From Aquabacter cavernae (lineage in GTDB: Bacteria; Pseudomonadota; Alphaproteobacteria; Rhizobiales; Xanthobacteraceae), in NCBI RefSeq assembly GCF_003993795.1, contig NZ_RWKV01000008.1, positions 186,001 through 250,000 of the forward strand: a DNA stretch of 64,000 nt. The letters are read 5' to 3'. Below the pieces are notes generated by a model. The model was not told the DNA's origin. It did not search any database and saw only the letters and a list, made by a program, of their open reading frames with translations. Position 1 is the first letter of the stretch. Each line of letters begins with the position of its first letter. The position numbers were made by a program, and so were the translations under genes. Positions 21,301 to 37,864 of the stretch are shown one piece after another.

Positions 21301-22905
21301 GGCACCGCCGTCGCCGACCACAAACTGGCCGCCCGATGCGATGGTCCAGCTTGCGTCCGCGCCGCTCACGCTCATCGCGCCGGTCGAGCCGGCGGCAACG
21401 CCGACGCTCGTGTCTCCACTGCTCATGACCCCGCCGGCGCCCAAGGCGAGGGTTCCGGCCGTGACGTTCACGGTCCCCGTGAAGGTGCCGGCGGTGCCGG
21501 TGAGGGTGGTGGTGCCCGACCCGTTCTGGTTCAGGCTGCCGGCCCCGGTGATGCTGGCGGCGAAGGTGTAGGTGCTGTTGGACTGGTTGAAATTGATGAT
21601 GCCGTTATTGGCGACGCTGGACAGGCCCGTGATCGCGCCCGTGGTGGATGCCCCCGGGACGGCGGTTCCGAGATTGAAGGTGCTGCCGGAATTGATGGTG
21701 AAGCCGGCGCCCGCTCCGAAGGTGATCGCGCCGGCGCTGGTCAGCGTTCCGCTGGCGCCAGTACCGCCAATGCCTTGCCTACCGCCCTGTTCAACTGAGT
21801 TGCCCCCACTGGCGCCGCCAAGAATAAGCTGGCCGCCCGCACCGATGGTGATGGCACTGCTGCTGCCCACAGTGATCGCACCGGCACCGCCGTTGCCACC
21901 ATTTCCTACGGTAGAGCCATTGCCGCCGCCGCCCCCGCTGCCGCCGATAAGCAGGGTCTCGGCCACCGAGAGGCTGGCACTGTTGGTGAGCACGAGCGTA
22001 CCGCTGCCGCCGTCGCCTCCGTTCTCATAGCCTCCGCCGCCGCCCGCGCCGCCGACCAGAATGCTGTAATTCACGGTTACCTGAGCGCCGTCCAGGGTGA
22101 GGGATCCGTTCGAGCCGGCGCTGCCGGGCGTGCTGTTGTCGTCGCCGCTCCCGCCGCCGCCACCACCACCGCCGATGCCCACAAAATCGTAGGTGCGCGT
22201 GTTGCTAAAGGTCAGGCTGTTGGGCGCATTTGCGCCAGCACCGGCCGTCTTACCGGAGACATCGGCGCCGCTCCCGTCCACCACCTTTCCGCCACCACCG
22301 CCGCCACCGCCGCCGGGTTGGCCACCGGGACTCGATGCGCCGCCGCCGCCATACAGGCTGCCGCTTCCGGCTGCTGCTCCTCCGCCTCCATTGGCGCCTG
22401 AGCCATCACCATTGGCGCCGGCAATGCCACCCGCACCACCAGAAATGCTGCTGCCGCCGGCGCCGCCCAAGGCGCCACCGCCGCCACCAAATCTGTACGC
22501 GGCGCCGCCACCGCCCAATCCGCCTGCGCCGCCTTGGGCCTCACCCGTGCCACCTGCACCGCCAATCGCGCCGTTTCCACCCTCGCCACCTGTGATAACA
22601 CCGAAGGCCGCAATATAGGCACCACCGCCGCCACCGATACCGCCGCCGCCGCCGGCGGCCCCGCCGGTGACTATTCCACCGCCGCCACCACCGATGCCGC
22701 CGCCGCCGCCGCCGCCGCCGGCTATAGTGGTATTTCCGGTTACGCCGCCCGCACCTCCGGCTCCGACGAGCAGGCTATCCGCCTGGGTGCCGCCGCTGGC
22801 GAGGGACAGAGCAAGAAGCGAGACGCCGGCAAGGGCCGCGAAATGCAGGCGGCTCTTCGCAGCCCGCTGCCCGCGAACGTGGTGTGCTTCAGCCGACTGA
22901 CCCAT
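15322..22905 (-). CDS. Giant autotransporter adhesin-like protein (type Va)
   Basis: A 2,527-residue outer-membrane autotransporter. The N-terminus has a Sec signal (LHFAALAGVSLLALSLASGG, then TQA|DS). About 270 residues of extreme glycine-rich sequence (runs of GGGGG) follow. The long passenger is built of beta-helical passenger-associated repeats of the type GTLTLTAANTYTGATTITAG. Residues about 1,680-1,900 contain near-identical 68-residue repeats. The C-terminal 280 residues form an autotransporter barrel (FWAQAFGAWNRIDGNGN to the final SFSLKF, ending in Phe as required for Bam insertion). ATG at 22905 has GGGGA upstream; the frame continues to a TTG at 22968 that would only lengthen the signal. 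A LuxR-type gene lies upstream. Function is unknown; adhesion or aggregation is usual. Confidence 0.9.
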   Translation of the reverse strand: MGQSAEAHHVRGQRAAKSRLHFAALAGVSLLALSLASGGTQADSLLVGAGGAGGVTGNTTIAGGGGGGGGIGGGGGGIVTGGAAGGGGGIGGGGGAYIAAFGVITGGEGGNGAIGGAGGTGEAQGGAGGLGGGGAAYRFGGGGGALGGAGGSSISGGAGGIAGANGDGSGANGGGGAAAGSGSLYGGGGASSPGGQPGGGGGGGGGKVVDGSGADVSGKTAGAGANAPNSLTFSNTRTYDFVGIGGGGGGGGSGDDNSTPGSAGSNGSLTLDGAQVTVNYSILVGGAGGGGGYENGGDGGSGTLVLTNSASLSVAETLLIGGSGGGGGNGSTVGNGGNGGAGAITVGSSSAITIGAGGQLILGGASGGNSVEQGGRQGIGGTGASGTLTSAGAITFGAGAGFTINSGSTFNLGTAVPGASTTGAITGLSSVANNGIINFNQSNSTYTFAASITGAGSLNQNGSGTTTLTGTAGTFTGTVNVTAGTLALGAGGVMSSGDTSVGVAAGSTGAMSVSGADASWTIASGGQFVVGDGGAGSLTVGAGGLLTSQTVFLGYATTGAGTLTLTGNDTDGRGMVATTQVRKRQGSGQIVFNGGGLRATAAQSDFLFGFASSDIDIQAGGAFIDSNGNAITITQDLSGTGGFTKQGTGTLTLAGSNSFAGATSVSGGTLTITSGSALSDTARLTLDSGTTLNVNTAAETVGSLAGSGTVHLNASLTVGGDNTDSTFSGTIDGAGALTKTGTGRLTLGSANSFAGNMTVSGGTVNATDEAALGLGDIIVSSGATLEAPGLSIGQSLTLNGSGVSDGGALRHTSGDSTFAGFITLGSATRIASDSGTLNLEGTISGAGMGLTVSGAGNTVISGVIGTAGGTLTKLGTGTLTLTAANTYTGATTITAGTLALSGSGSIATSASVLVDGTFDISGISGAGTSVTNLSGDTTTGIVALGTKTLTVTQQTEFLQLAGGLTGSGTLIKQGAEVLTLSGDSSTYSGTVQVNAGTLSITDWGATTAGHVGGNVSVASGGTLEAAGATIDGAVTIASGGILEWTRNGPTIGNVEMGSLTLDAGSVTRINLKAPASGTSIFQVSGNAAVNGTLNLVSAPDNGAGVYRVITTGGTLTNNGLVLGETQPDYTFRIDTQAQSLDVVVTTLDTTVQYWSADGTTRGGGGNWTSFNNWLGADGGYAVWAGGTAVFDGPIGSVSVDGTQSFNTIEFLSSGYVLQAGVSGQLNLGTGGRLWAEGEDIIVTVSAPIIGTGALTKIGEGTVVLSGNNTYLGGTILQAGTLEIYSDANLGDAAGTITFAGGELEARTTLTSARNIVLNTQGVISVDEDSTFTLTGIISGTGSLAFGGGTLVLTGTNTYQGATIIGGGTLSLTGTGSIATSSGVQADGTLDISGTTAGASITSLSGTGSVALGAQTLTLTNASGAFSGTIGGTGGLTLSGGTQALSGVNGFTGATNIAGGTLALTGTGSLAASSGLQVGGTFDISGVSGGGTSIRTLSGAGTVVLGANVLTLTNAAGNFQGGISGTGGLTLGSGTQMLSGTNSYSGTTTIAAGATLIATSSGAMSGGPVNLEGTLQITATTATIGGLTGTGTVTMPSGTASLVIAPASGSTSVFAGSLTSTAGVTILPGTPVIRIIGTSDSVQDDEVANDTLILTGENSYTDPIAAATLLVNFWGNLTAAAGASLGLVLNGPGTQVLTADHTYTGGTTILQGTLQLGNGGTSGSIQGDVANSGTLAFNRSGTATFAGDVSGTGGLTQMGPGTLILTGDNSYTGGTTIAAGTLQVGNGGTQGSIQGDVVNNGVLVFNRSGSVTFSGAVSGGGSLTQVGPGTLILTGDSTYTGGTTITGGTLQIGAGGATGAILGNVVNNGALVFNRSGSLTLAGAISGTGSLTQTGPGTLILTGASSYSGGTSVTGGTLVLGSSTAAGTGAIALLDGTTLALLDTVSVANALDLGGTVTFDLASGTATLSGALSGTGTMAFTGSGRISLTGDGSAFAGETVVDGTLAVNDRLGGTVTVETGGTLKGNGTVGSTSIAAGGTIAPGNSIGALTVDGTLTFASGATYAVEIETTGASDFILVTGTATLGGASVEVTKAAGTYLPGTRYTILTAQGGIVGAFTGPGQDLPFIDLQLAYDPNDVYLDVARNATPFPSVAVTANQRSTAFAVEALGQGNAVYNGVVSQTTVVGAQQAFNMLSGELYPSALSVLQDESLFLRRAVLDRARVPARTTASAPLAYAAGSSGGADVISAPDSPNAFWAQAFGAWNRIDGNGNAATISGDTAGVFVGYDRTFAAGAADWRLGFAAGYSSSNYQVDARSSSFSSDNAHVSLYGGASLGALGLRLGGAYSWADISASRTVVFPGFVNALNADTSAHTGQVFGEVGYGLSFAQIQLEPFAGLAYVNVDMSGFTELGGPAALTTSGSNAGVTYSTLGARVSVPFSLGALPATFNGTLAWQHAFGDTTPDMAFAFGAGALPFAISGVPIASDAALVEAGLDLKVSANAALAVFYAGQLSETDTSNMVKGSFSLKF
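17207..17818. repeat. 204-bp tandem coding repeats in the autotransporter
   Basis: The string AGGATGAGCGTGCCGGGGCC, or a one-base variant, recurs at 17207, 17411 and 17615, exactly 204 bp (68 codons) apart. Each unit encodes a strand-turn series containing LILTGDNSYTGGTTI and VVNNGVLVFNRSGS, with a fourth, more diverged unit toward 17,818. High nucleotide identity implies recent duplication or ongoing homogenisation. Confidence 0.85.
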
Positions 22906-23094
22906 TTCCGTCCCCAGCAGCAATTTCGTCGAAAAAATTATCCGGCGCTGAATATGCACACGGATCAAACAATCTTGCGGTCAAATGATACCGGAGGCGC
23001 CGCTTCGAGCCGGATTGCCCGCACCCACGGCATAGCCGCATGGACAGCCGACTCGCAAGCTTCACCATAAGGGCGGAGCTTTCTGCGCTTCCAC

Positions 23095-23130: not shown

Positions 23131-23898
23131 TCAGCCGCCGCTGTTCAGCCACAGGCTCATCAGTTCGGCGCGGCTGCGCACGCCGAACTTGCGGAAGATG
23201 CGCGTCACATGCTGGTGGGCAGTGGAGGTGGCGATGCCGCTTTGGCGGGCGATCTCCTTTTCCGACGCCTTGGTGAGCAGCAGTTGAAGCACGCGCCGCT
23301 CGCCGGGCGTCAACGGGGCGCTGGCCATGAGAAGCCCGTTGGCCATGAGCAGGGTGCGGTGGAACCATTTGATGCCGCGCAGCGCATAGGCGAGGTGGGC
23401 GATCTCGTCATCGGTGAAGCGCCGGCGCGCGTAGAAGCCAAAATGGGATTCGCAGTCCGCATTCATGGGAAAGGCCACGAAAACCGCATCGTGCGTGCCC
23501 ACGGCTTCATAATGGCGCCGGTAGAAGTCGGAGGAGAACCAGTCCTCGGGCAGTTCGCGGCGGAAGGAATAGGTGCGGAACGTGCCCACATTGCGCATGG
23601 GCAGGAGGAAGGAGGGGTCGATCTCCCGCCGCTCCCACACCTCCAAGATGTCCTTGAAATGCTGCGCGTCGGGATGGGGCGGCACCGGGTGGAGGGCCTG
23701 GACGGCGGCGACGCGCCAGCCCTGCAGCGGATCCGCGCCGGTCGTGTCCTCCAGGCGGATGGCGCCCGCCCATGTGGCGTTCCATGCGCCGCAGGCTTCG
23801 CACAAGGCGGCCATCAGATGGGCGGCCGCCTGGGTGGAGTTGGGAACCTCGAAGTCCGACAGCTCGTCCCAGATGCGGTGCACCGCTTCCGTGTCCAT
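23131..23898 (-). CDS. LuxR-family transcriptional regulator
   Basis: A 255-residue protein. The C-terminal LuxR/GerE helix-turn-helix (residues about 190-252) starts at LTPGERRVLQLLLTKASEKE and contains the recognition helix in GIATSTAHQHVTRIFRKFGV. The N-terminal 180 residues form no recognised acyl-homoserine-lactone or receiver domain; WAGAIRLEDTTGADPLQGWR and the aromatic-rich middle suggest a GAF/PAS-like sensory fold. It has no cognate kinase nearby. The gene is upstream of the autotransporter on the same strand and divergent from the nitrilase operon, so it could control either. Confidence 0.87.
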   Translation of the reverse strand: MDTEAVHRIWDELSDFEVPNSTQAAAHLMAALCEACGAWNATWAGAIRLEDTTGADPLQGWRVAAVQALHPVPPHPDAQHFKDILEVWERREIDPSFLLPMRNVGTFRTYSFRRELPEDWFSSDFYRRHYEAVGTHDAVFVAFPMNADCESHFGFYARRRFTDDEIAHLAYALRGIKWFHRTLLMANGLLMASAPLTPGERRVLQLLLTKASEKEIARQSGIATSTAHQHVTRIFRKFGVRSRAELMSLWLNSGG

Positions 23899-24344: not shown

Positions 24345-25412
24345 ATGACCGTCAGCTATCCCCGCTTCAAGGCCGCCGCCTGCCATGCTTCGTCCGTGTT
24401 CCTGGACGCCGAGAAGACTGCCGAGAAGGCGTGCGACCTGATCGCCGAGGCCGCCTCGAACGGGGCCGCGCTCGTGGTGTTTCCGGAATCCTTCCTGCCG
24501 GGCTTCCCGGTCTGGGCCGCGCTGCAGGCGCCCATCTACAATCACGGCTTCTTCCGCGCCTTGGCGGCGGAAGCCCAGAAGCTGTCGGACGGGGCCATCC
24601 GCGCCATTCGCATGGCGGCCCGCCGCCACGGCCTGTTCGTGTCGCTCGGCTTCACCGAGGGGACCGAGGCCAGCGTCGGATGCCTCTGGAATTCCAACAT
24701 CCTAATCGGCCCGGACGGCGCCATCCTCAACCATCACCGCAAGCTCGTGCCCACCTTCTATGAGAAGCTGGTGTGGGCGAACGGCGATGCGCGGGGCTTG
24801 CGCGTCACCAATACGGAACTGGGCCGCGTGGGCATGCTGATCTGCGGGGAGAACACCAATCCCCTCTCGCGCTATGCCCTCATGGCCCAGGGCGAGCAGG
24901 TGCACATCTCCACCTATCCGCCCATGTGGCCGACCCGCCCGCCCGAGGAGGATGGCGCCTATGACCTGAAGCGCGCCATCGAGATCCGCGCGGGCGCGCA
25001 TGCCTTTGAGGCAAAGGTGTTCAACATCGTCGCCTCCGGCTACGTGGATGCCGCCATGCGCGAGGCCATGGGTGCGCTGGGCCGGGAAAGCCTGGAGGTG
25101 ATGGACAAGTCGCCGCGCGGCATCTCCATGGTGCTCGACCCGTCCTCGCAGGTGGTGGGCGATGTGCTCTGCGAGCACGAGGGCATCCTCTATGCCGACA
25201 TCGACACGGCGCGCTGCGTGGAGCCCAAGCAGTTCCATGACGTGGTGGGCTATTACAATCGCTTCGACATCTTCCACCTCCAGGTGGACCGCACCGCGCG
25301 CGAGCCTGCCTACTTCGCCGAATCCGCCGCGCTGAAGGAGACGCTGGGGGCACCCGCGCCCGCGCTTGGCGGTACGGACGACATGTTCGCGGACATGGAC
25401 GGCATGCGCTGA
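24345..25412 (+). CDS. Nitrilase (arylacetonitrilase-like)
   Basis: A 355-residue carbon-nitrogen hydrolase that converts nitriles to carboxylic acids and ammonia. The catalytic triad is visible: Glu48 in VVFPESFLPG, Lys133 in HHRKLVPTFYEK and Cys167 in MLICGENTNPLSRYAL; Glu140 is the conserved second glutamate. CGENTNP and AALQAPIYNHGFF are typical of true nitrilases (branch 1) rather than amidases. The ATG at 24345 is chosen because MTVSYPRFKAAA aligns with nitrilase N-termini; the open frame continues far upstream without a plausible start. It is the first gene of a nitrilase / ABC importer / aldoxime dehydratase run, so its substrate is probably the nitrile made by the dehydratase. Confidence 0.93.
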   Translation: MTVSYPRFKAAACHASSVFLDAEKTAEKACDLIAEAASNGAALVVFPESFLPGFPVWAALQAPIYNHGFFRALAAEAQKLSDGAIRAIRMAARRHGLFVSLGFTEGTEASVGCLWNSNILIGPDGAILNHHRKLVPTFYEKLVWANGDARGLRVTNTELGRVGMLICGENTNPLSRYALMAQGEQVHISTYPPMWPTRPPEEDGAYDLKRAIEIRAGAHAFEAKVFNIVASGYVDAAMREAMGALGRESLEVMDKSPRGISMVLDPSSQVVGDVLCEHEGILYADIDTARCVEPKQFHDVVGYYNRFDIFHLQVDRTAREPAYFAESAALKETLGAPAPALGGTDDMFADMDGMR

Positions 25413-25498
25413 CCACCGGCGCGATGCCCAACGGTTTCACCCGGCGCGCGACGCCGGGATCTCAAAAAACAAAACAAACCTATCCAGAGGATCGAAAC

Positions 25499-26677
25499 AT
25501 GAAGATGAAGAAGAGCCTTTCAGCCCTTGCCTGCGCGGCGCTCACCGCGCTGACCCTCCAGCCCTCGGCGGGTTTCGCCAAGGACACGGTGAAGATCGCC
25601 TTCATCGGCCCGCTCACCGGCGGCAATTCGGCGACCGGCCTCGGCGGGCGCAATTCGGCCGCCCTGGCGGTGGACCTGCACAATGCCAAGCCCGACGCCA
25701 AATACACCTACGAGCTTGTCCCGTTCGATGACGAGTGCAAGCCCAATGTGGGCGTGCAGGTGGCCACGAAGGCGGCGTCCGACAAGTCCATCATCGCCGG
25801 CATCACCCATTATTGCTCGGCGGTGGCCATCGCCACGGTGGAAACCTACAACCGCTTCGGCCTGCCGGTGGTGGTGTGGGGCGCGGTGCTGCCGGAGATC
25901 ACCTATGGCAACGACTTCAAGGAGATCCACCGCGTCAACGGCACCATGATCAACGAAGGCAAGATGGCGGCCGAGTTCCTGACCAAGCAGGGCTTCAAGA
26001 CCTTCGTGGTGATCCATGACACCACGGATTACGGTAAGGGCCAGAACAAGTATTTCGCTGAGAACCTGAAGCCCCAGGGCGGCGATATCGTCGCCACCTT
26101 CGCGGTCTCGCCGGACCAGCAGGACTTCACCGCCGAACTCACCAAGGTGAAGGAGCTGAAGCCCGACGTGGTGTTCATCGGCGGCCTCACCCCGCTCGGC
26201 GTGCGCGTGCGCTCGCAGATGGACCGGCTCGGCATTCCCGCGCAGCTCGCCGGCGTCTCCGGCATCATGAGCGCGGGCTTCATCGAGGGCGCCGGGCAGG
26301 CGGCCGAAGGCACCGTCTCCTTCCATAACGGCGCGCCGCTGACCAAGTATGCGGACGGCAAGGCGTTCATGGACGCCTACACCAAGGCCGGCTACCGCGA
26401 GGATCCCGACGCCTACGGCCCGTTCGCCTTCTCCGCCGCGAACCTCGTCATGGACGCCATCGACAAGGTGGGGCCGGACCGCAAGAAGGTGCGCGACGTG
26501 CTCAACACCACCAAGGGCTACAAGGCGCTGGTGGGCGAGGTGAATTTCGACGATCACCGCCAAAACATCGTCTCGGCCAATGTCTACGTGGCCCAGGACG
26601 GCAAGTGGGTCTACTGGCCCGACAGCGCCTATGCGGCGGGCACCAAGAAGCTCCCCGGAAAGACGGCCGGAAACTGA
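25499..26677 (+). CDS. Branched-chain-type ABC transporter, substrate-binding protein (system 1)
   Basis: A 392-residue periplasmic protein of the Peripla_BP_6 (LivJ/LivK) family. MKMKKSLSALACAALTALTL and then QPSAGFAKD form a Sec signal with AxA-type cleavage. VKIAFIGPLTGGNSATGLGG is the standard first strand and helix. DDECKPNVG and ITHYCSAVAI place two cysteines as in the LivK disulfide loop. Its ligand is unlikely to be leucine given the operon; an aldoxime, nitrile or related aromatic compound is inferred. AGAGGA precedes the ATG. A GC hairpin follows the stop, as often seen after highly expressed binding proteins. Confidence 0.9.
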   Translation: MKMKKSLSALACAALTALTLQPSAGFAKDTVKIAFIGPLTGGNSATGLGGRNSAALAVDLHNAKPDAKYTYELVPFDDECKPNVGVQVATKAASDKSIIAGITHYCSAVAIATVETYNRFGLPVVVWGAVLPEITYGNDFKEIHRVNGTMINEGKMAAEFLTKQGFKTFVVIHDTTDYGKGQNKYFAENLKPQGGDIVATFAVSPDQQDFTAELTKVKELKPDVVFIGGLTPLGVRVRSQMDRLGIPAQLAGVSGIMSAGFIEGAGQAAEGTVSFHNGAPLTKYADGKAFMDAYTKAGYREDPDAYGPFAFSAANLVMDAIDKVGPDRKKVRDVLNTTKGYKALVGEVNFDDHRQNIVSANVYVAQDGKWVYWPDSAYAAGTKKLPGKTAGN

Positions 26678-26683
26678 GAAGCG

Positions 26684-26713
26684 GGAGGCCGGGCTTCTCC
26701 GGGCCCGGCCTCC
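26684..26713 (+). promoter_or_regulatory. Hairpin after the binding-protein gene
   Basis: GGAGGCCGGGC (26684-26694) pairs with GCCCGGCCTCC (26703-26713) across an 8-nt loop, 6 nt after the stop of the binding-protein gene and 93 nt before the permease. It lacks a U-run. It probably stabilises or partially terminates, raising binding-protein expression over the membrane subunits. Confidence 0.55.
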
Positions 26714-26806
26714 GTCCTTCCCGCGCGGCGCCCTTCTTGCAGGGGCTCGCCCGACCCGGGCGGCCCCCATGCGGCGCCGCCACCGCCCCTCTCGCGGAGA
26801 CCTTCC

Positions 26807-27727
26807 ATGGATCCCGGCCTTCTCGCGCAATATGTGTTCAACGGGCTCATGCTCGGCACCATCTACGCCATCGTGGCGGTGGGCTTCTCGCTGTTCTTCG
26901 GCGTGCTCGACGTCATCAAGTTTTCCCATGGCGACGTGGTCACCGTGGGCGCCTTCTCCGCCTTCGGAGCGGCGGGACTGGTGGCGGCCGCCGTCACGCT
27001 TCCCGGCCCACTCGCTCTGGCTCTGGGCCTCTTGGCCGCGCTGGGGGCAGGGGCCGCGTCCGGTATGCTCATCGGCCGCGTGCTGGTGCTGCCGCTGAAG
27101 AACGCGCCCGCCGTCAACGTGCTCCTCGCCACCCTCATGGCCGGAACAGTGCTGCGGGAGGTGATCCGCCTGGGCGTGCCGAACGGCGGCAATCCCAAGC
27201 CCTTCCCGGCGCTGCTGCCCGAGGGCGTTTTGGCGGCCGGCTCCTTCAGCGTGGGCATCGACAGCGTGATCATCCTGGTGGCGGGGATCGCGGTGGTGGT
27301 GGCCACCCATCTGGTCATCACCCGCACGCGCCTCGGCCTCGCCATCCGCGCGGTGGCGCAGGACGGGGAGGTGGCCCAGCTCGCGGGCATCAGCTTCTCC
27401 CGCACGGTGCTCGGCACCTTTGCCCTCGGCTCCATGCTCGCCGGCCTCGCGGGGCTGATGCTCGGGCTCTATTATCGGGAAATCAATTTCAACATGGGCG
27501 TTCTCCTCGGCATCATCGGCTTCGCCTGCGCGGTGGTGGGCGGGCTCGGCAGCCTCATCGGCCCCATCCTGGGCGGCTTCCTGTTCGCGGGCATCCAGAC
27601 CGGCGTCACGGTCGTTCTGCCCTTCACCAGCGCCTACAAGGATGTGGTGGCCTTCGCCGTCATCATCCTGCTGATCGGACTGTTCCCCACCGGCCTCATC
27701 GCCGAAAAGAGCAGCGAGCGGGTGTGA
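26807..27727 (+). CDS. Branched-chain-type ABC permease, LivH-like (system 1)
   Basis: A 306-residue inner-membrane permease with about eight helices. NGLMLGTIYAIVAVGFSLFF followed by GVLDVIKFSHGD is the LivH N-terminal signature. GLAIRAVAQDGEVAQLAGIS is the cytoplasmic coupling loop that contacts the ATPases, and AVVGGLGSLIGPILGGFLFA is the conserved C-terminal glycine-rich helix. GGAGA precedes the ATG. It pairs with the LivM-like permease one nucleotide downstream. Confidence 0.92.
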   Translation: MDPGLLAQYVFNGLMLGTIYAIVAVGFSLFFGVLDVIKFSHGDVVTVGAFSAFGAAGLVAAAVTLPGPLALALGLLAALGAGAASGMLIGRVLVLPLKNAPAVNVLLATLMAGTVLREVIRLGVPNGGNPKPFPALLPEGVLAAGSFSVGIDSVIILVAGIAVVVATHLVITRTRLGLAIRAVAQDGEVAQLAGISFSRTVLGTFALGSMLAGLAGLMLGLYYREINFNMGVLLGIIGFACAVVGGLGSLIGPILGGFLFAGIQTGVTVVLPFTSAYKDVVAFAVIILLIGLFPTGLIAEKSSERV

Positions 27728-27728
27728 C

Positions 27729-28922
27729 ATGAGCATGCTCCAGCTTGCCCCCACGCTCGACACCGCCAACGGCCGCTCGGTCGGCCTCCAGCGCGTTGTC
27801 GTCGCCCTCACCGTGGCCGTCCTGTTCGCCGGTGGCGGCTTCCTGCTCCACACCGAGGAGCAGGGCCAGGTCATCGCGCTGCTGGCCGCCTTCGTGGCGC
27901 TGTTCGCCCTGGGCGAGAAGCTGCCCGCCGGCCGGCGCGTCGCCGCCTTGTGCGTCGCCCATCCCGGCACGGTCAATCTCACGGCTGCCGTCATGGTGCT
28001 CGCCATCGCAGCGGCGCTGCGGGAGGAGCATTACACGCTCCTGATGATGGCCACCGTCGCCTTGTTCGCCACCGCCGCGGCGGGGCTGACTCTCCAGATG
28101 GCGTTCGCGGGCGTGCCCAATTTCGCGGGCGCCGCCTTCTTCGCGGTTGGCTCCTATGTGGCCGCCGTGCTGGGGACCAGCGGCATCCCGCATTTGCTGG
28201 TGCTGGTCATTGCGGGCCTCGCGGCGGCGGTGCTTGGGCTGCTGCTGCTGCTGCCGGTGCTGCGCACGCGGGGCCATTACGCGGCGCTGGTCACCATCGC
28301 CTTCGGCCTGCTGCTGCGCTCGTTCCTCGAAGTGAACGACGTGCTGGGCGGGCCGCAGGGCATGAAGGTGCCGTCCTTCTCCCTCTTCGGCCTGTCCTTC
28401 AGCCGCGTCACCGAGATCGGCCCCTACGACGTGTCCTTCTACCTGCCCTATGCGCTGGCGGGCTGCTTTCTGTTCGCGCTCGCCTTCGCGGTGGTGCGGC
28501 GGCTGGAATTCTCCTTCGCCGGCGTCGCGCTGGATGCGGTGCGCTCCGACGAGGTGTCGGCCAGCGTGTTCGGCCTCTCCATCGCCCGCTGGAAGGCGAC
28601 CGCCTTCCTCATGGGCAATGCCTTGATCGGGGTGGCGGGCGCGCTTTACGGCATGATGAATGCGTTCGTGAACCCCAACAGCGCCAATTTCGGCGACAGC
28701 CTCATCATGCTGTCCATCCTGGTGCTGGGCGGGCTCGGCAATCTCTGGGGCGCGGTGGTGGCCTCGGTGGTGATCCTCGTCATCCCCGAGAAGCTCCAGG
28801 CCATCCAGGAGTTCCGGCTGGTCATCTTCGCCCTCCTGGTCATCGCCATCCTGCGCTTCCGTCCTTCTGGCCTCATGCCCCGGGTCACGCGCGACTTCTC
28901 CAGCTTCGCGAAGGAGGGGTGA
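27729..28922 (+). CDS. Branched-chain-type ABC permease, LivM-like (system 1)
   Basis: A 397-residue membrane protein with about ten helices. AAAGLTLQMAFAGVPNFAGA is the LivM core. RTRGHYAALVTIAFGLLLRS, with the preceding helix, and FGLSIARWKATAFLMGNALI (coupling loop) are typical. ILVLGGLGNLWGAVVASVVI is the C-terminal conserved segment. The first 80 residues are a poorly conserved hydrophobic extension. It starts immediately after the LivH stop (TGACATG), so the two are coupled. Confidence 0.92.
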   Translation: MSMLQLAPTLDTANGRSVGLQRVVVALTVAVLFAGGGFLLHTEEQGQVIALLAAFVALFALGEKLPAGRRVAALCVAHPGTVNLTAAVMVLAIAAALREEHYTLLMMATVALFATAAAGLTLQMAFAGVPNFAGAAFFAVGSYVAAVLGTSGIPHLLVLVIAGLAAAVLGLLLLLPVLRTRGHYAALVTIAFGLLLRSFLEVNDVLGGPQGMKVPSFSLFGLSFSRVTEIGPYDVSFYLPYALAGCFLFALAFAVVRRLEFSFAGVALDAVRSDEVSASVFGLSIARWKATAFLMGNALIGVAGALYGMMNAFVNPNSANFGDSLIMLSILVLGGLGNLWGAVVASVVILVIPEKLQAIQEFRLVIFALLVIAILRFRPSGLMPRVTRDFSSFAKEG

Positions 28923-28924
28923 GC

Positions 28925-29701
28925 ATGAGCGCGCTCCTGGCCTGCAACGGCCTCACAATGCGCTTCGGCGGCCTGACGGCGCTGGACGGCGTGGATATCG
29001 CGGTGGGGAAGGGGGAGACGGTGGGGCTGGTGGGTCCCAACGGCTCCGGAAAGACCACCTTCTTCAACGTGCTCACCGGCCTCTACAAGCCCTCGTCCGG
29101 CGCGGTGCGGTTCGCGGAAGCGGACCTGTTCGCCCGCTCCCCCCAGGAGATCGGCCGGGCCGGGGTGGCGCGCACCTTCCAGCGCTCCCGGCTCATGCTG
29201 GACCAGACCGTGTTTGACAATATCGCGGTCGGGGCGCTCGGGCGGCTCGATCTCGGACTGATGACGGCGCTGGTGCGCCGCAGCCGGTTCCGTCGCCAGC
29301 TCTCCGCGCTGGTGGAACAGGCCACCGCGCTCACCCGCCGGTTCAACCCGCAGATCGCGGCCAACCTGTTCCGCCCGGCGGGCAGCTTCACCATGATCGA
29401 CCGGCGGCGCATCGAGATCTGCCGGGCGCTCATCGGCGCCCCGCGCCTGCTGCTGCTGGACGAGCCCTCCGCCGGCATGACCCACGAGGAGACCCGCCAG
29501 CTCATGGACGACCTGCTCGCCTTCCGGGAGGAGATGCCGGACCTCGCCATCGTGCTCGTGGAACACGAGATGGACGTGATCCGCCGCATTTCGGACCGCT
29601 GCATCGTGCTGAATTTCGGCAAGAAGATCTTCGAGGGGCCGTTCGACGCTTTGATCGCCGATCGCGAGGTGCAGACGGCCTATCTGGGAGGCGGCGAATG
29701 A
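28925..29701 (+). CDS. Branched-chain-type ABC ATPase, LivG-like (system 1), signature motif degenerate
   Basis: A 258-residue nucleotide-binding subunit. Walker A GPNGSGKT is at residues 37-44, Walker B LLLLDE at 175-180 with catalytic Glu180, and the H-loop His in LVEHEMD at about 214. VARTFQRSRL is the LivG-type Q-loop region. Where LivG proteins have LxYGQQRRLEIAR, this protein reads FTMIDRRRIEICR, so the Ser/Gly-Gly-Gln signature is lost while the flanking RRxEI helix is intact. The partner LivF has a normal LSGGE, so the pair would have one standard and one degenerate composite site. Starts 3 nt after the LivM stop. Confidence 0.92.
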   Translation: MSALLACNGLTMRFGGLTALDGVDIAVGKGETVGLVGPNGSGKTTFFNVLTGLYKPSSGAVRFAEADLFARSPQEIGRAGVARTFQRSRLMLDQTVFDNIAVGALGRLDLGLMTALVRRSRFRRQLSALVEQATALTRRFNPQIAANLFRPAGSFTMIDRRRIEICRALIGAPRLLLLDEPSAGMTHEETRQLMDDLLAFREEMPDLAIVLVEHEMDVIRRISDRCIVLNFGKKIFEGPFDALIADREVQTAYLGGGE

Positions 29702-30432
29702 CCGTGGAGCCGAAGGGAAGCCGCCGCCTGTCCGTCATGGGCGTGACCACCGGCTATGACGGGGCGGACGTGCTGCATGACGTCTCCATCGAGGCGAAGC
29801 CGGGGCGCATCACCTGCATCCTGGGGGCCAACGGGGCGGGCAAGTCCACGCTCATCCGCTCCATTCTCGGCCTCACGCCGGTGCGGCGCGGACAGGTGGC
29901 GTTCGGCGGTGACACCATCACCAACCTCGCCACCCACCGCATCGCGGCCCTGGGCATCGCCACCGTGCCGGAGGGCAATCGGGTTCTGCCGCGCATGAGC
30001 GTGCTGGAGAATTTGCAGGTGGGCGGCCTGCTGGAGAAGGACCGCCGACGCCTCGCGGCGCGCATGGAGGGCCTGTTCGAGACCTTCCCGCGCCTGAAGG
30101 AGCGGCGCAACCAACTGGCGGGCACGCTCTCGGGCGGCGAGCGCTCCATGCTCTCCATCGCGCGCGGGCTCATGACGGACCCGGAGTTGATCGTCTTCGA
30201 CGAGCCTTCGCTTGGCCTCTCGCCGCTCTTCGTCGCCGAGGTGTTCCGCATCGTCCGGCGGCTCAAGGAGGAGGGCTACACCATCCTGCTCGTGGAGCAG
30301 AATGTGCGCCAGACCCTGGATGTGGCGGATGACGGCTATGTGCTCGCGCAGGGCCGGGTGGTCGCCTCCGGCACCAGCACGGCGCTGTCCGAGGACCAGG
30401 AACTCCACAAGGCCTATTTCGGCGTTCACTGA
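29698..30432 (+). CDS. Branched-chain-type ABC ATPase, LivF-like (system 1)
   Basis: A 244-residue ATPase. Walker A is GANGAGKST and the signature LSGGERSMLSIARGL is intact. Walker B is ELIVFDEPSLGLSP and the H-loop position is LVEQNVRQTL, where LivF proteins normally have Gln-Asn instead of His. GIATVPEGNRVLPRMSVLEN is the typical LivF segment. It overlaps the LivG gene by 4 nt (ATGA). It is the last importer gene; the aldoxime dehydratase follows 56 nt later. Confidence 0.93.
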   Translation: MTVEPKGSRRLSVMGVTTGYDGADVLHDVSIEAKPGRITCILGANGAGKSTLIRSILGLTPVRRGQVAFGGDTITNLATHRIAALGIATVPEGNRVLPRMSVLENLQVGGLLEKDRRRLAARMEGLFETFPRLKERRNQLAGTLSGGERSMLSIARGLMTDPELIVFDEPSLGLSPLFVAEVFRIVRRLKEEGYTILLVEQNVRQTLDVADDGYVLAQGRVVASGTSTALSEDQELHKAYFGVH

Positions 30433-30488
30433 GCCATCGGCATCACGGACGCAGGCCAGAAAACAGACAAGGAAACAGGGAAGGGATC

Positions 30489-31538
30489 ATGGGAATACCC
30501 GTCTATGAGCGCATCAACCCGCTGCGCAAGCCCAAGGGGTTCGAGCCGGTGGTGCAGCGCTGGTCCGCTGCCTTCCTCAACACTTGCCGGACCGTCTGCG
30601 TCACCTTCCACGGCGTCCAGGGAGAGAGCGCGGAGGCGGTCTATGGCTCGTCCTTCTTCCCCTGGATGGCCGGCATACTCGAAGGCCCCGATGCCCCCAC
30701 GCTGAGCGACCATGCCTGGTTCGTGGACCAGAACGGGCTCTACACCCACATCGTCGCCTCCTATTGGGTGGACGAGGCGCGGCGCGACCGCTTCCTCGCC
30801 GCCCCGCAGGTGCGCGGCTGGTGGGAGGATGCCGCCCGGCTCAGCGAGGCCACCGGCTATTTCCGCGAAAGCCTGACCGTGCCCCTGGAGCGGCAAGAGA
30901 CGCTCTACTGGCAGGATTATGCGGGGGGCATTTCGGCCGCGCCGGACGTGGGCATCTATCCCACCCCCTGGTGCGGCTATTACGGCGCCATGCGCGACCG
31001 CATCCCGCTGGCGGCGGTGGACGCTCTGGAGAGCCCGCTTCCGGAACTCGTGCCCGTGGCGCGGGAGACCAAGGGGCGGCGTTGGCGGCTTGCGGCGCCT
31101 CACAATCTGGCGGTCATCCGCTCGGCCGCCTTCTGGGGCCGCTGCGATCCCGTGCAGGAAGAAGACTACATGCGCGACCTGCGCGCGCCGCTCCTGCGGG
31201 GCATGGACTTCCTGAAGGAGAATCCGGAAGTGACGGGCTGCGCCTCGCTGCGCTTCCAGCAGACCTGCGACGCGGCCGGCGCGCCGGTTCTGGAGACCCA
31301 TGCGCTCGGCTATTTCCTGTCGCTGGGCCATATGGAGCATTGGGCGGAGCACCATCCCACCCATGAGGCCATCTTCAAGGCGGCCATCGCCCGCTATCGC
31401 AAATACGGCAAGGCGAACCAGCTCCGCACCTGGCACGAGGTGTTCATCCTGCCGGCGGATGAGGCGCAGGCGTTCGAATATATCAATTGCGCGCCGGGCA
31501 CGGGCCTCCTCGGCTTCCTGCTGGGGGAGAGCGTTTAA
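30489..31538 (+). CDS. oxd: Aldoxime dehydratase (heme-dependent)
   Basis: A 349-residue protein of the phenylacetaldoxime dehydratase family, which dehydrates aldoximes to nitriles with a b-type heme bound directly by substrate. The family core is visible: GSSFFPWMAG, GLYTHIVASYWVDEA, YYGAMRDRIP, HNLAVIRSAAFWG and the heme region GYFLSLGHMEHWAEHHPTH. By alignment from memory to characterised enzymes, His292 (in HPTH) would be the proximal heme ligand. Arg171, Ser212 and His316 (TWHEVFIL) would be the distal substrate-handling residues. AAGGGA precedes the ATG. With the nitrilase six genes upstream it completes an aldoxime to nitrile to acid route. Confidence 0.92.
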   Translation: MGIPVYERINPLRKPKGFEPVVQRWSAAFLNTCRTVCVTFHGVQGESAEAVYGSSFFPWMAGILEGPDAPTLSDHAWFVDQNGLYTHIVASYWVDEARRDRFLAAPQVRGWWEDAARLSEATGYFRESLTVPLERQETLYWQDYAGGISAAPDVGIYPTPWCGYYGAMRDRIPLAAVDALESPLPELVPVARETKGRRWRLAAPHNLAVIRSAAFWGRCDPVQEEDYMRDLRAPLLRGMDFLKENPEVTGCASLRFQQTCDAAGAPVLETHALGYFLSLGHMEHWAEHHPTHEAIFKAAIARYRKYGKANQLRTWHEVFILPADEAQAFEYINCAPGTGLLGFLLGESV

Positions 31539-31705: not shown

Positions 31706-32599
31706 CTAGAACTCGGTCAGGAAAGCCGTGTCGCGCCGTACCACTTCCGTGAGGTGCTGGAGCACGGCGCGGAACCGGCCCATGAATTCCAGGTCTTCGT
31801 GCACGCTCACATAGATGTCGCGCATCACCACCACCTCGTCGGGCAGGATGGGAATAAGGCGCGGATTGCTCTTGGCAGAGAAGAGCGGCAGCAGGCCGAT
31901 GCCCGCCCCGCGCGCCACCGCATTCTGCTGGGCATGCATGGAGGTGGAGCGGAACGCCACCTTGTTGGGATCGAGCACATCCAGCAGCCAGTGAACGGGC
32001 TGGATGGCGACCAGATCCTCCACATAGTCCACGAACAGATGCGACGGCAGTTCCTCGCGCGTGCGCGGCATGCCGAAGCGGCGCACATAATCGGGCGCGG
32101 CATAGAGGGCGAGGCGGAAGCTGCCGATCTTGCGCACCGCGAGCCGCTGGCCCTGGGGCGGCACGAAGGAGACGAACACGTCCGCCTCGCGCTTGGTCAG
32201 GTTGATGAGGTGGCGCTCGGTGACCAGCTCCACCACGAGGCCCGGTTCCTTCTCCGCCAGTTCCGCGAAGCACCCGGCGAGGTAGAAGGCGCCGATCCCC
32301 TCCATGGAAGCCACCCGCACCGCGCCCTTGGGCGCGCTGGGGACAGCCTGGATGGTCTCCTCGATGGCCACGGCTTCCTGCTCAATGCGCTCGGCCATGG
32401 CGAACAGGCGATGGCCCACTTCCGTGAGCACGAAGCCGTCAGGCTTGCGGTCGAACAGCTTGAGGGCGAGGTCGCGCTCCAGTTCGCTGATGCGGCGGGA
32501 GACCGTGGTGTGGTCCACCTTCAGGCGACGGGCGACGGGCAGAAGCCGGCCCTGCCGGGCCAGTTCCAGGAAGAAAATGAGGTCGTTCCAGTTGAACAT
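31706..32599 (-). CDS. LysR-family transcriptional regulator
   Basis: A 297-residue LysR regulator. The winged helix-turn-helix covers residues 1-60: FNWNDLIFFLELARQGRLLP then ARRLKVDHTTVSRRISELE, the recognition helix. The effector domain begins near GAVRVASMEGIGAFYLAG. The HTTVSRRI form is common in regulators of one small LTTR group that controls oxidative catabolism. The ATG at 32599 has GGAG 5 nt upstream; a GTG at 32608 would add three residues. A 9-bp hairpin (32608-32630) sits just before the start. It is downstream of the flavin monooxygenase gene on the same strand and convergent with oxd. Confidence 0.9.
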   Translation of the reverse strand: MFNWNDLIFFLELARQGRLLPVARRLKVDHTTVSRRISELERDLALKLFDRKPDGFVLTEVGHRLFAMAERIEQEAVAIEETIQAVPSAPKGAVRVASMEGIGAFYLAGCFAELAEKEPGLVVELVTERHLINLTKREADVFVSFVPPQGQRLAVRKIGSFRLALYAAPDYVRRFGMPRTREELPSHLFVDYVEDLVAIQPVHWLLDVLDPNKVAFRSTSMHAQQNAVARGAGIGLLPLFSAKSNPRLIPILPDEVVVMRDIYVSVHEDLEFMGRFRAVLQHLTEVVRRDTAFLTEF

Positions 32600-32753
32600 C
32601 GGCTCCACCCGGCGCGGTGCGCGCGCCGGGAGCGACGATAGGAAAAATCACCGGGACGATAAAGCCTTGAACGAGAAACGGAGCGGAAAGGCGCACCCGC
32701 AAGGACGATCCGAAGGGCGGGAAAGTCACGCCCTTCGAATGCCGCACGCGCCC

Positions 32754-34037
32754 TCAGCGTGCCGCGTCTGCCCGGCAGGCGTCGTCATAGGCGATATAGG
32801 CGCGCTGGATGGAGATCTGGTCCGCCAGATACTTCGCATCGTGCCACACGCCCCAGATGAAGCTGGAGCCGCGCCGGGACTGCCAGGGCAGGCCGAGGAA
32901 ATAGATGCCCGGCTCGCACGACACGCCCCGCTGGTGGCGCGGCTTGCCGTCGGCGTCGAACGCATCCACCTGCATCCAGCCATAGTCCAGCGCGAAGCCG
33001 GTGGCCCAGATGATGGTGGAGACGCCCGCCGCCTTGAGGTCGAGCGCGCGGAGCGGATCGCGCACGCAGGGGGCGTCCGGCACGCTCACCCGCGCCTCCG
33101 GGTCTTCCGGCAGGTCGAGGCCGTTGCGCGCCACATAAGCGTCCGCCTCGTCCAGCAAAGCGCGGTTATTGGCGTCCCCGTTGTTCAAGTTCTCGACAAG
33201 GTCGGACCCGAACCGGACCACGTCGTCGGTGCAGCCCTCGGTGCGGCCCACCAGGATCATGCCGTCCGCCGCGAGGCGGCGGAAATCGATGGTGTGGCCG
33301 CCATTGGCGCCGCTTACCGCGATGGTCACATGCTCCTTGCCGGGCTCCTGGGCGGCGGCGTCCCACTTGCCGAGCACGCCCAGCCACCACACGAAGTCAC
33401 GCCCGCGATAGGCCCGGGGCGGGCGGTCATGGGGCCCAACGGAGAGATAGACGGTGCGCCCGGCGCGCAGCAATTCCTCGGCGATCTGGACGCCGGACGA
33501 GCCCGCGCCCACCACGAGCACAGCACCTTCGGGCAGGGCCTGCGGGTTCCGATAGCCGGTGGAGTGCATCTGCACCACGCCCGTCTCGGCCGGGATCACG
33601 GGCGGCATGATGGGCCGCTGGAAGGGGCCGGTGGCGGCAACCACGCGGGCGGCCTCGATGACGCCGTCCGAGGTCTCTACCCGGAAGCCGGGACGGCCGG
33701 AATTGCGCTCCAGCTTCAGCACCTCGACGCCGCAGCGGATGGGCGCGGCGATCTTGTCCGCATAGGCCACGAAATAATCAGCCACCTGTTCCTTGGCCGG
33801 GAAGTCGTCCGGGCCGATGGCGGCATCGAAATCGGTGAAGGTGAGGCCGGGAAAGCGGTCGTGCCAGGCGGGGCCGTTCGCCACCAGCGAATCCCACCGC
33901 TCCGAACGCCAGCGCTCGGCAATCCGGCGGCGCTCCAGGACGAGGTGCGGCACGCCGGCCTTGCTCAGATGCTCGCTCATGGCCAGCCCGGCCTGCCCGG
34001 CGCCGATGACCAGCGTGTCGATCGTCTCAACTGACAT
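32754..34037 (-). CDS. Flavin-containing monooxygenase-like FAD/NAD(P)H oxidoreductase
   Basis: A 427-residue two-dinucleotide-binding flavoprotein. TLVIGAGQAGLAMSEHL (residues 8-24) binds FAD and VLVVGAGSSGVQIAEELL (about 155-172) binds NAD(P)H. AATGPFQRPIMPP and STIIWATGFALDYGWMQV are the family's ATG motifs. The FMO/BVMO fingerprint FxGxxxHxxxW is not intact; MHSTGYRNP occupies that place. The protein resembles YUCCA/CzcO-like flavoproteins. Possible roles are N- or S-oxygenation of a transported compound. ATG at 34037 has AAGGGA upstream; 14 extra residues are open before it. It sits between the aldoxime locus and the second importer. Confidence 0.83.
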   Translation of the reverse strand: MSVETIDTLVIGAGQAGLAMSEHLSKAGVPHLVLERRRIAERWRSERWDSLVANGPAWHDRFPGLTFTDFDAAIGPDDFPAKEQVADYFVAYADKIAAPIRCGVEVLKLERNSGRPGFRVETSDGVIEAARVVAATGPFQRPIMPPVIPAETGVVQMHSTGYRNPQALPEGAVLVVGAGSSGVQIAEELLRAGRTVYLSVGPHDRPPRAYRGRDFVWWLGVLGKWDAAAQEPGKEHVTIAVSGANGGHTIDFRRLAADGMILVGRTEGCTDDVVRFGSDLVENLNNGDANNRALLDEADAYVARNGLDLPEDPEARVSVPDAPCVRDPLRALDLKAAGVSTIIWATGFALDYGWMQVDAFDADGKPRHQRGVSCEPGIYFLGLPWQSRRGSSFIWGVWHDAKYLADQISIQRAYIAYDDACRADAAR

Positions 34038-34227
34038 TTGGGGTCCCTTTTCTGGCGCATCCGGCGCCGGATTCGGCATGTGCCGAAGACTTCTTCTTCA
34101 ATCTAGGGGCGTGATCTGGATCGTTAAATAATTAAACAAATTATCATTGCTTCAGAAAAACAAAATTTACCGGCGATGAATCTCGTAATTGTCTGGAACA
34201 GGGCAGTGAATATTCCAGGAAAACGCT

Positions 34228-34320: not shown

Positions 34321-35478
34321 TCACTGGCGGGTGGTCCAGGCGCCGTCCTTGACCTCGCGCAGCTCAAGCACGACTTCGCGCTTGGTCTGGCCATTCTCGT
34401 CGAAGGTTGTGCGGCCCATGGCGCCGTCATAGTCGATGGCGCGGATGGCCTTCGCAATGGCGGCCTTGTCCTTCACGCCGGCGGTCTTCAGCGCGTCGAT
34501 GATGATGTTGGTCGCGTCATAGGCGTTCTTCGTATAGGAGCCGATGGGCTCGGCGAAGTTCGCGGCCTTGTAGGCGGTGGTCATGGCATCCAGCTTCGGA
34601 TTCCCCACTTCCTTGGCGATGCCCGCGATGGTGCCGTTGGCCGCCGCGCCGGCGATCTTCAGGAACTCGCTGTCATAGAAGCCGTCCACGCCGATCATGG
34701 GCTGGTTCATGCCAAGCTGCACCATCTGCTGGCGCACGAGGCCCGCTTCCGCCACCACGCCGCCGAAATAGATGGCGTCGGGATTGGTGCCCTTGATCTT
34801 GGTGAGCAGGGCGCGGAAGTCGGTGGTGCCCACGGGCGCGCTCTCGGCCGCGACGATGGTGCCGCCGTCCGCCTCGTAGAACTTCCGGAAATTGTCCGTG
34901 TTGGCGACACCGTAATCGCTGGTGTCGGAGACGATGGCGATGCGCTTGCCGAGGTTCGTCGCGGCCCACTTGGCGAGCGGGGCGTTGGTGTTCACGAGCG
35001 TGGTCACCACGCGCGAGACCATGGGATTGTTCTTCTCGGTGATCTTCGGGCTGATGGCGCCCCACACCACAAAGGGCACGTTGGCGCGGCTGAAGACCGG
35101 GATGGTGGCGAGCGCGACGCCGCTGTTCCAGTGGCCGGTGGCGGCAACGACCTTCGGGTCGTTGGTGAGCTTCAGGGCGGCGGCGACGCCGGTCTGGGGA
35201 TTGGCCGCGTCATCGAGGATGACGGGCTCGATCTTGAAGGGCAGGCCGGCCGCATTGGCCTGGTCGATGGCGAGCTGGAAGCCGTTGCGGGCCGCGATGC
35301 CCTGCTGGGCATTGCCGCCGCTGAGCGGGCCGATGAAGCCAAGCTTCACGGTCTCCTGGGCGAGTGCGGAGCCGGTGCCGAGGCCGGAGACGGCGAGGGC
35401 GCCGGCGAGCGCGGCAAGGCCCAGGGAAAAGGTGCGGCGTGCGGGACGCGACGGCCGCTGGATGGGCGCGAAGGCCAT
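34321..35478 (-). CDS. Branched-chain-type ABC transporter, substrate-binding protein (system 2)
   Basis: A 385-residue Peripla_BP_6 protein. The signal region has twin arginines: RPSRPARRTFSLGLAALAGA, then SALAQ|ET, so Tat export is possible though the motif is imperfect. VKLGFIGPLSGGNAQQGIAA is the family opening, and TGHWNSGVALATIPVFSRAN and YFGGVVAEAGLVRQQM line the hinge and ligand cleft. No cysteine pair is present, unlike system 1. AGGAG precedes the ATG. It is divergent from the permease and ATPase genes that start at 35772, sharing a 293-bp promoter region, so the importer is split over two transcripts. Confidence 0.9.
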   Translation of the reverse strand: MAFAPIQRPSRPARRTFSLGLAALAGALAVSGLGTGSALAQETVKLGFIGPLSGGNAQQGIAARNGFQLAIDQANAAGLPFKIEPVILDDAANPQTGVAAALKLTNDPKVVAATGHWNSGVALATIPVFSRANVPFVVWGAISPKITEKNNPMVSRVVTTLVNTNAPLAKWAATNLGKRIAIVSDTSDYGVANTDNFRKFYEADGGTIVAAESAPVGTTDFRALLTKIKGTNPDAIYFGGVVAEAGLVRQQMVQLGMNQPMIGVDGFYDSEFLKIAGAAANGTIAGIAKEVGNPKLDAMTTAYKAANFAEPIGSYTKNAYDATNIIIDALKTAGVKDKAAIAKAIRAIDYDGAMGRTTFDENGQTKREVVLELREVKDGAWTTRQ

Positions 35479-35771
35479 GATCTCAAACTCCTCTGGACCG
35501 GCCTTTGGACGGCCATGATGGTTGGTCGGGAGGCGCGCCTCCCACGGCTGAAACTCTGAACCCGCCCGCGTCCGAACGAAAATCGGAACTTCAAAACCTT
35601 TGACGTTGGATTTTCCGAACCAAGGGTCAGTGCCCCCGCTCTGCCTGCCGCAGCGTCGCACTTCAAAACATCGGACCCATTGATTTGGAAAAAACTATTC
35701 TGATCGCGGCCTGCTTTAGGGCAAATTCGGCCGATGCGCCGCTGAAAACAGAGCCAGAAAGAGGGCCGGAC

Positions 35772-37861: not shown

Positions 37862-37864
37862 CCC

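Follow-up and report, generated by a model that had tools for sequence, protein, structure and literature searches.

Gene content of the cluster

The subject of this report is a cluster of seven genes in a 64,000-nucleotide stretch of the Aquabacter cavernae genome (contig NZ_RWKV01000008.1; the whole stretch is referred to as the window, and positions are counted from its first letter). Between positions 24345 and 31538 the + strand encodes, in this order, a nitrilase, a LIV/HAAT-type ATP-binding cassette (ABC) importer and a heme aldoxime dehydratase (Oxd), all with Pfam matches above the cut-off. The nitrilase, a carbon-nitrogen hydrolase of the CGEN type, occupies 24345–25412 (355 aa; PF00795, 6.8e-38). 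The importer comprises a periplasmic binding protein (25499–26677, 392 aa; Peripla_BP_6, 1.1e-44), a LivH-like permease (26807–27727; PF02653, 3.5e-43), a LivM-like permease (27729–28922; PF02653, 2.1e-31), a LivG-like ATPase (28925–29701; PF00005, 8.5e-24) and a LivF-like ATPase (29698–30432; PF00005, 3.6e-28). The Oxd gene closes the cluster (30489–31538, 349 aa; PF13816, 1.2e-70). Every one of the seven frames runs from ATG to stop with no internal stops, and the successive gaps are 86, 129, 1, 2, -4 and 56 bases. The first-pass annotation of the window had described seven same-strand genes with short gaps (they range from -4 to 129 bases) and a complete importer between the two enzymes, and all of these parts are present. 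As oxd is clustered with a gene for a nitrile-converting enzyme, the locus has the composition of an aldoxime-nitrile pathway operon.

The two enzymes

The window Oxd belongs to the PF13816 family (238.8 bits, cut-off 25). Its closest solved relatives by phmmer are 7f2y (OxdB, 1.5e-51) and 3w08 (OxdA, 1.6e-49), and its structural model (pLDDT 91.6) has the Oxd fold, with TM scores of 0.91 to OxdB (7f2z) and 0.87 to 3w08 and 3a15. Residues Glu137, Arg171, Ser212, His292 and His316 align with Glu143, Arg178, Ser219, His299 and His320 of OxdA, of which we take His299 to be the axial and His320 the distal histidine, and the other three presumably have catalytic roles as well. All five are present in 11/11 close relatives; a wider set of 19 sequences keeps H292, H316, R171 and E137 throughout, but not S212. 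The protein is thus a predicted heme aldoxime dehydratase with intact catalytic residues. It scores 202.3 bits against the NCBIfam model for the aliphatic aldoxime dehydratase OxdA (NF050090), below the equivalog cut-off of 600.

The nitrilase scores 130.9 bits against PF00795 (cut-off 23.2). The Glu-Lys-Cys triad, reported as intact in the first-pass annotation, is Glu48-Lys133-Cys167, and these residues, together with the second glutamate (Glu140), are invariant in 19/19 aligned nitrilases. The best solved relatives are NitA (6zby) and Nit6803 (3wuy); the score against the Nit6803 family model TIGR04048 is 198 bits, below the equivalog cut-off of 502.6. The genome encodes a second Oxd, 35% identical to that of the window, which adjoins two binding proteins, a LIV importer and a nitrilase-type carbon-nitrogen hydrolase. 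With the window nitrilase as query only two matching genes are found in the genome, one at each Oxd; the motif is CGEN in the window, CWEN beside the second Oxd (L036) and CWEH in L041.

Nitrilases of the window kind also adjoin NrtA/CmpA-type importers, or their binding protein, and a molybdopterin oxidoreductase in L177, L180, L182 and L103 (14108–17742). These loci come from nodule or legume isolates and Variovorax, and the CGEN motif is confirmed in L177, L180 and L103 only. A plasmid island of Methylobacterium nodulans (pMNOD01, L178) encodes, together with a nitrilase 70% identical to that of the window, a tautomerase, acetate symporters and two nitronate monooxygenases; the annotation shows no Oxd in the stretch around the nitrilase.

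Importer and binding protein

One binding protein, two BPD_transp_2 permeases and two ATPases make up an importer of the LIV/HAAT type. The scores stay below the NCBIfam cut-offs for LivH (126.5 bits/379), LivM (148.9/366), LivG (213.3/362), LivF (225.6/441) and the binding protein PRK15404 (122.6/477), LivG and LivF being the best NCBIfam models for the two ATPases. The N-terminus of the binding protein is hydrophobic and, judged by eye, reads as a signal peptide. Its AlphaFold model (pLDDT 78.9) matches 4n0q and the amino-acid binders 3ip5 and 4gnr with Z of 37.4, and the aromatic-acid binders 4q6w and 4evs with 37.2 and 33.8; since amino-acid and aromatic-acid binders are about equally close, the fold gives no ligand.

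The ligand pocket differs from that of amino-acid binders at two positions. Four amino-acid binders, aligned as five solved chains, have Thr and Asp/Glu at the places of LBP Thr102 and Glu226, which we take to be amino-acid contacts, whereas in 13/13 homologues, that of the window included, Thr102 is replaced by Val or Ile and Glu226 by Ser. The binding protein of the window therefore does not have the branched-chain pocket of LivJHMGF, as defined by Thr102 and an acidic residue at 226.

Recurrence in related bacteria

PF13816 matched in 35 of the 248 family genomes, in 24 of 397 of an order sample (22 above the cut-off) and in 17 of 398 of a phylum sample (13 above the cut-off), the three samples overlapping. 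The comparison covered 58 neighbourhoods, 21 loci and plasmid records; of 34 plasmid records with an Oxd match three were examined (H1, H9 and the unannotated H10). Fragmentary PF13816 matches below the cut-off and G335 (a 60-residue match) were left out, and L094, L095, L096, L100, L101 and L106 were taken as repeats of L038, L050, L039, L064, L063 and L052, respectively, and counted once.

An importer of the window type stands beside Oxd and nitrilase in Xanthobacter, Aquabacter, Bradyrhizobium algeriense, Azorhizobium, Methylorubrum and Methylobacterium symbioticum and, outside the order, in Corticibacter populi. Copies are also found on Bradyrhizobium plasmids, and on pCC829_2 the importer, Oxd and nitrilase are adjacent. 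The first-pass annotation had suggested searching genomes for this combination, and the set recurs in relatives rather than being absent from all of them.

A tree of 77 Oxds, unrooted, so that a group is one side of a branch, places the window Oxd among 44 rows (support 100/98), in 37 of which an ABC importer lies in the cluster (34 LIV-type and 3 NMT1-type). The group that holds OxdA has 30 rows, OxdA included, with an importer in only one (L059). The comparison of 37/44 with 1/30 gives a Fisher p of 7e-13, a value that ignores relatedness and scores OxdA as importer-less without a view of its neighbourhood. OxdB is likewise placed outside the importer-linked group. Within that group, clade A, to which the window belongs, shows an importer in 22 of 27 rows, the second type (B) with its neighbours in 12 of 14 (all 12 family rows, but neither L088 nor L112), and clade D in 3/3. 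A nitrilase is found in the neighbourhood in 25/27 rows of clade A (not in L105 and L113), in 9/12 family loci of type B (contig ends interrupt the remaining three) and in 3/3 of clade D.

In respect to the scoring, L059 was counted as importer-positive (ATPases 3–4 kb from Oxd, with a permease and the nitrilase between). Besides OxdA, the loci scored importer-less include L066 and L082 (LIV-like ATPases 6–8 kb off; outside both groups), L048 (OxdA group; a single ABC ATPase 4.5 kb off, type not identified) and L110. The importer is cut by contig ends in L037, L040 and L045, L040 showing binding proteins only, and that of L175 and L176 was taken from the record annotation. L084, on a long branch (28% identity) and with ABC ATPases of unidentified type 2.3 and 3.1 kb off, was omitted from the tree. 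The nitrilase-importer-Oxd cluster is a real, conserved operon type and more than a chance assembly, and the claim that importer and aldoxime-to-acid enzymes form a unit is borne out by its recurrence around most Oxds of the group.

Importers of differing origin

The importer is not the same in all clusters. LivF of the window type forms a single clade with 11 other cluster members, and LivF of type B is likewise a single clade. In L103 (Variovorax), L111 and L114 (both Bradyrhizobium) an Oxd of the window clade lies beside a LIV importer that is not of the window type, and a short tree search separates their LivF from that of the window by a 98% branch. In L054, L067 and L069 the genes follow in the order nitrilase, PF00528 permeases (L069 showed one of two), ATPase, NMT1/THI5-type binding protein and Oxd, which is the same plan with a non-homologous importer class. 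In our reading, at least three separate recruitments are indicated (window type with type B; NMT1 type; the types of L103 and of L111/L114), plus that of L059 in the other Oxd group. Because importers linked to Oxd and nitrilase recur and yet are not all orthologous, uptake and the aldoxime-nitrile pathway are likely to be functionally linked.

Transcription and flanking genes

A scan of the + strand between 23900 and 31800, limited to the sigma-70 consensus, gave no promoter- or terminator-like pattern, which is no evidence of a single transcript. On the - strand of the same interval three terminator-like patterns were found, fewer than in shuffles. Convergent with the cluster, at its 3' side, lies a LysR-type regulator (31706–32608, - strand; PF03466, PF00126). 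A LysR protein 65–98% identical to it is found in 13/24 other chromosomal neighbourhoods of the window's Oxd clade, and from this neighbourhood it is a possible regulator of the cluster. The LuxR-type (GerE) regulator divergent from the nitrilase (23131–23898, - strand; PF00196, 1e-11) had no match among those listed for the other loci (the L038 contig stops before that position), and it is probably not a core part of the system.

Beyond the LysR gene, a FAD oxidoreductase (32754–34079, - strand) is distantly related to the MSMEG_0569 flavoprotein model, which we take to cover the flavoprotein of the Nit1C cluster. With 359.9 bits it stays below the model cut-off of 498.35, and membership in Nit1C was rejected on this basis (of the Nit1C partners, only the flavoprotein was searched for). 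A second LIV importer with a divergent binding protein is found at 34321–39362, followed, up to 42662, by an M20 enzyme (acetylornithine-deacetylase-like, TIGR01892 above the cut-off), a DUF1028 protein and a LysR regulator. Among the mapped loci, that of the nearest genome (L038) is the only one to show it at the corresponding position, and because of this and of its M20 and DUF1028 neighbours it was treated as a separate operon and rejected as part of the system.

Elsewhere in the window, the - strand holds a 2548-residue open frame at 15322–22968 with 11 passenger-associated transport repeats (PATR), resembling a giant autotransporter, in which Pfam called no barrel domain. A GGDEF diguanylate cyclase with a Cache-type sensor is encoded at 48133–49677, also on the - strand.

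Proposed function and alternatives

We propose that the cluster is an operon for aldoxime-nitrile catabolism that has a high-affinity importer of its own, and put the probability of this reading at about 0.6. The binding protein would capture an aldoxime, a type of plant defence compound, in the periplasm, and the LIV-type permeases with their pair of ATPases would bring it into the cell, where the heme Oxd would dehydrate it to the nitrile. The CGEN nitrilase would then hydrolyse the nitrile to the acid and ammonia, providing a nitrogen source and perhaps a carbon source, and the neighbouring LysR protein may switch the operon on. Our inferences are the single transcript, the import of the aldoxime itself, the sequence of reactions, the mode of regulation and the purpose (nutrient or detoxification). 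Since active uptake would be needed, a polar or scarce substrate is more to be expected than an arylacetaldoxime that diffuses freely, and a role in nutrition or detoxification seems more likely than auxin synthesis.

Several observations weigh against this proposal. No importer is seen in the cluster in 7 of the 44 Oxd rows (L088, L102, L104, L105, L110, L112 and L113). Among these, L105 runs into a contig end, two in-frame stops interrupt the Oxd of L102 (10001–11020) and one that of L110 (10001–10930), and in L110 ABC ATPases lie 6–7 kb off on the opposite strand; in L102 and L110 Oxd and importer have perhaps decayed together. The importer of type B is on the opposite strand from Oxd in 8/12 loci, with the ATPases about 5 kb off where seen, and on plasmid p4_1 the nitrilase is about 14 kb from Oxd. 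A sister relation between the LivF clades of the window type and type B is possible (SH-aLRT 80), which means that the two need not have been recruited independently. The genome holds 50 PF02653 permease matches, which if paired amount to roughly 25 LIV-type importers in 4.5 Mb, and single neighbours can be due to chance; one LIV importer beside an Oxd is therefore unremarkable, and the recurrence is the striking part. As for the pocket of the binding protein, in a census of the 34 binding proteins of the family in the genome (30 fetched and 27 aligned, the positions being less sure in such divergent proteins), 26 of the 27 others lack the full Thr102/Glu226 pair and only L160 keeps both.

The same census bears on the idea that the cluster merely adjoins an ordinary LIV-type amino acid or amide importer, by chance or through a shared response to nitrogen starvation. 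This idea draws on the abundance of such importers and on the matches to LIV models, and a chance neighbour is weakened by the recurrence with importers of different class and origin and by the replacement of one importer with another. The loss of both LBP contacts throughout the 13 homologues also speaks against it, and we regard it as improbable. That loss was rejected as proof of an aldoxime ligand, as most other binding proteins of the genome share it. The suggestion that the protein is not an ordinary amino-acid binder thus stands only in a weak form: an ordinary amino acid is an unlikely ligand, and nothing singles out an aldoxime.

It is somewhat less improbable, though still unlikely, that the importer brings in a nitrile, a precursor or a conjugate, and that Oxd acts on a minor or internally formed aldoxime. 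On two Bosea plasmids the same kind of nitrilase (CGEN confirmed in one) stands beside an NrtA/CmpA-type importer with no Oxd annotated in the stretch, and in L103 and p4_1 such a nitrilase lies beside this importer class with Oxd 6 to 14 kb off. In the loci with the window-type importer, however, it is Oxd that keeps to the importer: the LivF gene is 17–96 bases from Oxd in 13/17 genome loci (in the remaining four the distance is 211 in L052 and 641 in L107, and the genes are on opposite strands in L109 and L077), and the nitrilase is the gene that shifts in place or strand. Uptake of an aldoxime by the cluster remains the preferred reading.

The first-pass annotation had named phenylacetaldoxime and indole-3-acetaldoxime as possible substrates, yielding phenylacetic acid or auxin. 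Carriage of the cluster by root-nodule relatives would agree with this, as would the acceptance of these aldoximes by some characterised Oxds, listed in Table 2 in the accessible part of PMC8955678. The characterised OxdA and OxdB fall outside the Oxd group of the window, and therefore their specificities do not carry over; moreover, neutral arylacetaldoximes should need no ATP-driven importer to cross membranes. No support was found for these substrates or for auxin (auxin genes elsewhere in the genome were not searched for), and we consider this version very improbable.

A different lead points to small polar compounds of legumes. A segment of about 16 kb on the Bradyrhizobium plasmid p4_1, from an Acmispon nodule, holds the nitrilase, a dehydrogenase, a nitronate monooxygenase, the importer and Oxd; a tautomerase is encoded 3 kb beyond it. 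Within 10 kb of a window-clade Oxd, L047, L102, L105 and L113 carry a nitronate monooxygenase with 60% or more identity to the p4_1 enzyme, and L047, L077, L102 and L113 a malonate-semialdehyde-type dehydrogenase (at least 60% identity), which is also found near the Oxd of L084. Neither gene was seen near Oxd in any of the 12 type B loci. The breakdown of the legume toxin 3-nitropropionate uses nitronate monooxygenase and (methyl)malonate-semialdehyde dehydrogenase, according to the available text of PMC9552603, and that of PMC12383939 notes that isoxazolin-5-one and 3-nitropropionate co-occur in natural toxins. The presence of these genes near some Oxd copies hints at a small polar, legume-type substrate. 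The cluster could, as a speculative extension to which we give a low probability, belong to a wider group of plant-associated systems that consume small polar N-O and nitrile toxins of legumes: the importer would take up a carboxylated aldoxime such as 3-(hydroxyimino)propanoate, Oxd would convert it to cyanoacetate, and the CGEN nitrilase would release malonate and ammonia. This aldoxime is, by our own chemical reasoning, presumably the ring-opened form of isoxazolin-5-one. If the extension were true, the cluster would hold the first ABC importer specific for aldoximes, and lineages would have exchanged one importer class for another while keeping the two enzymes. Against it, neither gene is found within the 64 kb of the window, most window-clade loci lack them, and the counts carry no genome background frequency; for these reasons it stays a lead. 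The word "oxime" is also absent from the accessible text of the two toxin papers.

Comparison with known systems

The natural substrates of bacterial Oxds are poorly known, and fewer than 30 of thousands of these enzymes have been studied as proteins, according to the accessible text of PMC11568032. A linked binding protein would be a direct handle, as its ligand would name the substrate of the pathway, and the lineage of Oxd and nitrilase is one to explore for biocatalysis. A transport step would be added to a pathway that reviews describe by its enzymes only: the words "transport", "permease" and "uptake" are absent from the available text of the 2022 review on aldoxime and nitrile metabolism in plant-associated bacteria (PMC8955678), and "transport" and "uptake" from that of the 2024 Oxd review (PMC11568032). 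Titles and the opening lines of abstracts in the open-access literature, with subscription papers largely uncovered, report no importer in an aldoxime or nitrile cluster.

The Nit1C cluster (Podar 2005, PMC1199592) is likewise a conserved nitrilase-centred cluster, but its partners differ from those of the window, and the available text of that paper contains none of the words "aldoxime", "transporter" and "permease". The LIV/HAAT importers, including LivJHMGF, the urea importer UrtABCDE and the systems of the Rhodopseudomonas aromatic-acid binders, have the same five components and the same binding-protein fold, whereas the importer of the window is linked to aldoxime enzymes and has lost two LBP amino-acid contacts. 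In the clusters of Pseudomonas chlororaphis B23 and Rhodococcus, as given in the accessible part of PMC8955678, Oxd also feeds a nitrile-converting enzyme, there a nitrile hydratase followed by an amidase; the window has a nitrilase in their place, and the importer in addition. Bacillus sp. OxB-1 and Bradyrhizobium sp. LTSPM299 have clusters in which oxd likewise stands beside nit and the aldoxime is converted to nitrile and acid. For these the same part of PMC8955678 gives an AraC-type regulator and describes no transporter, whereas the window has an importer, a LysR protein, an Oxd of a different group and a nitrilase of the CGEN type. The pathway itself is already known, and what is new, as read from the genes, is a predicted variant with built-in uptake.

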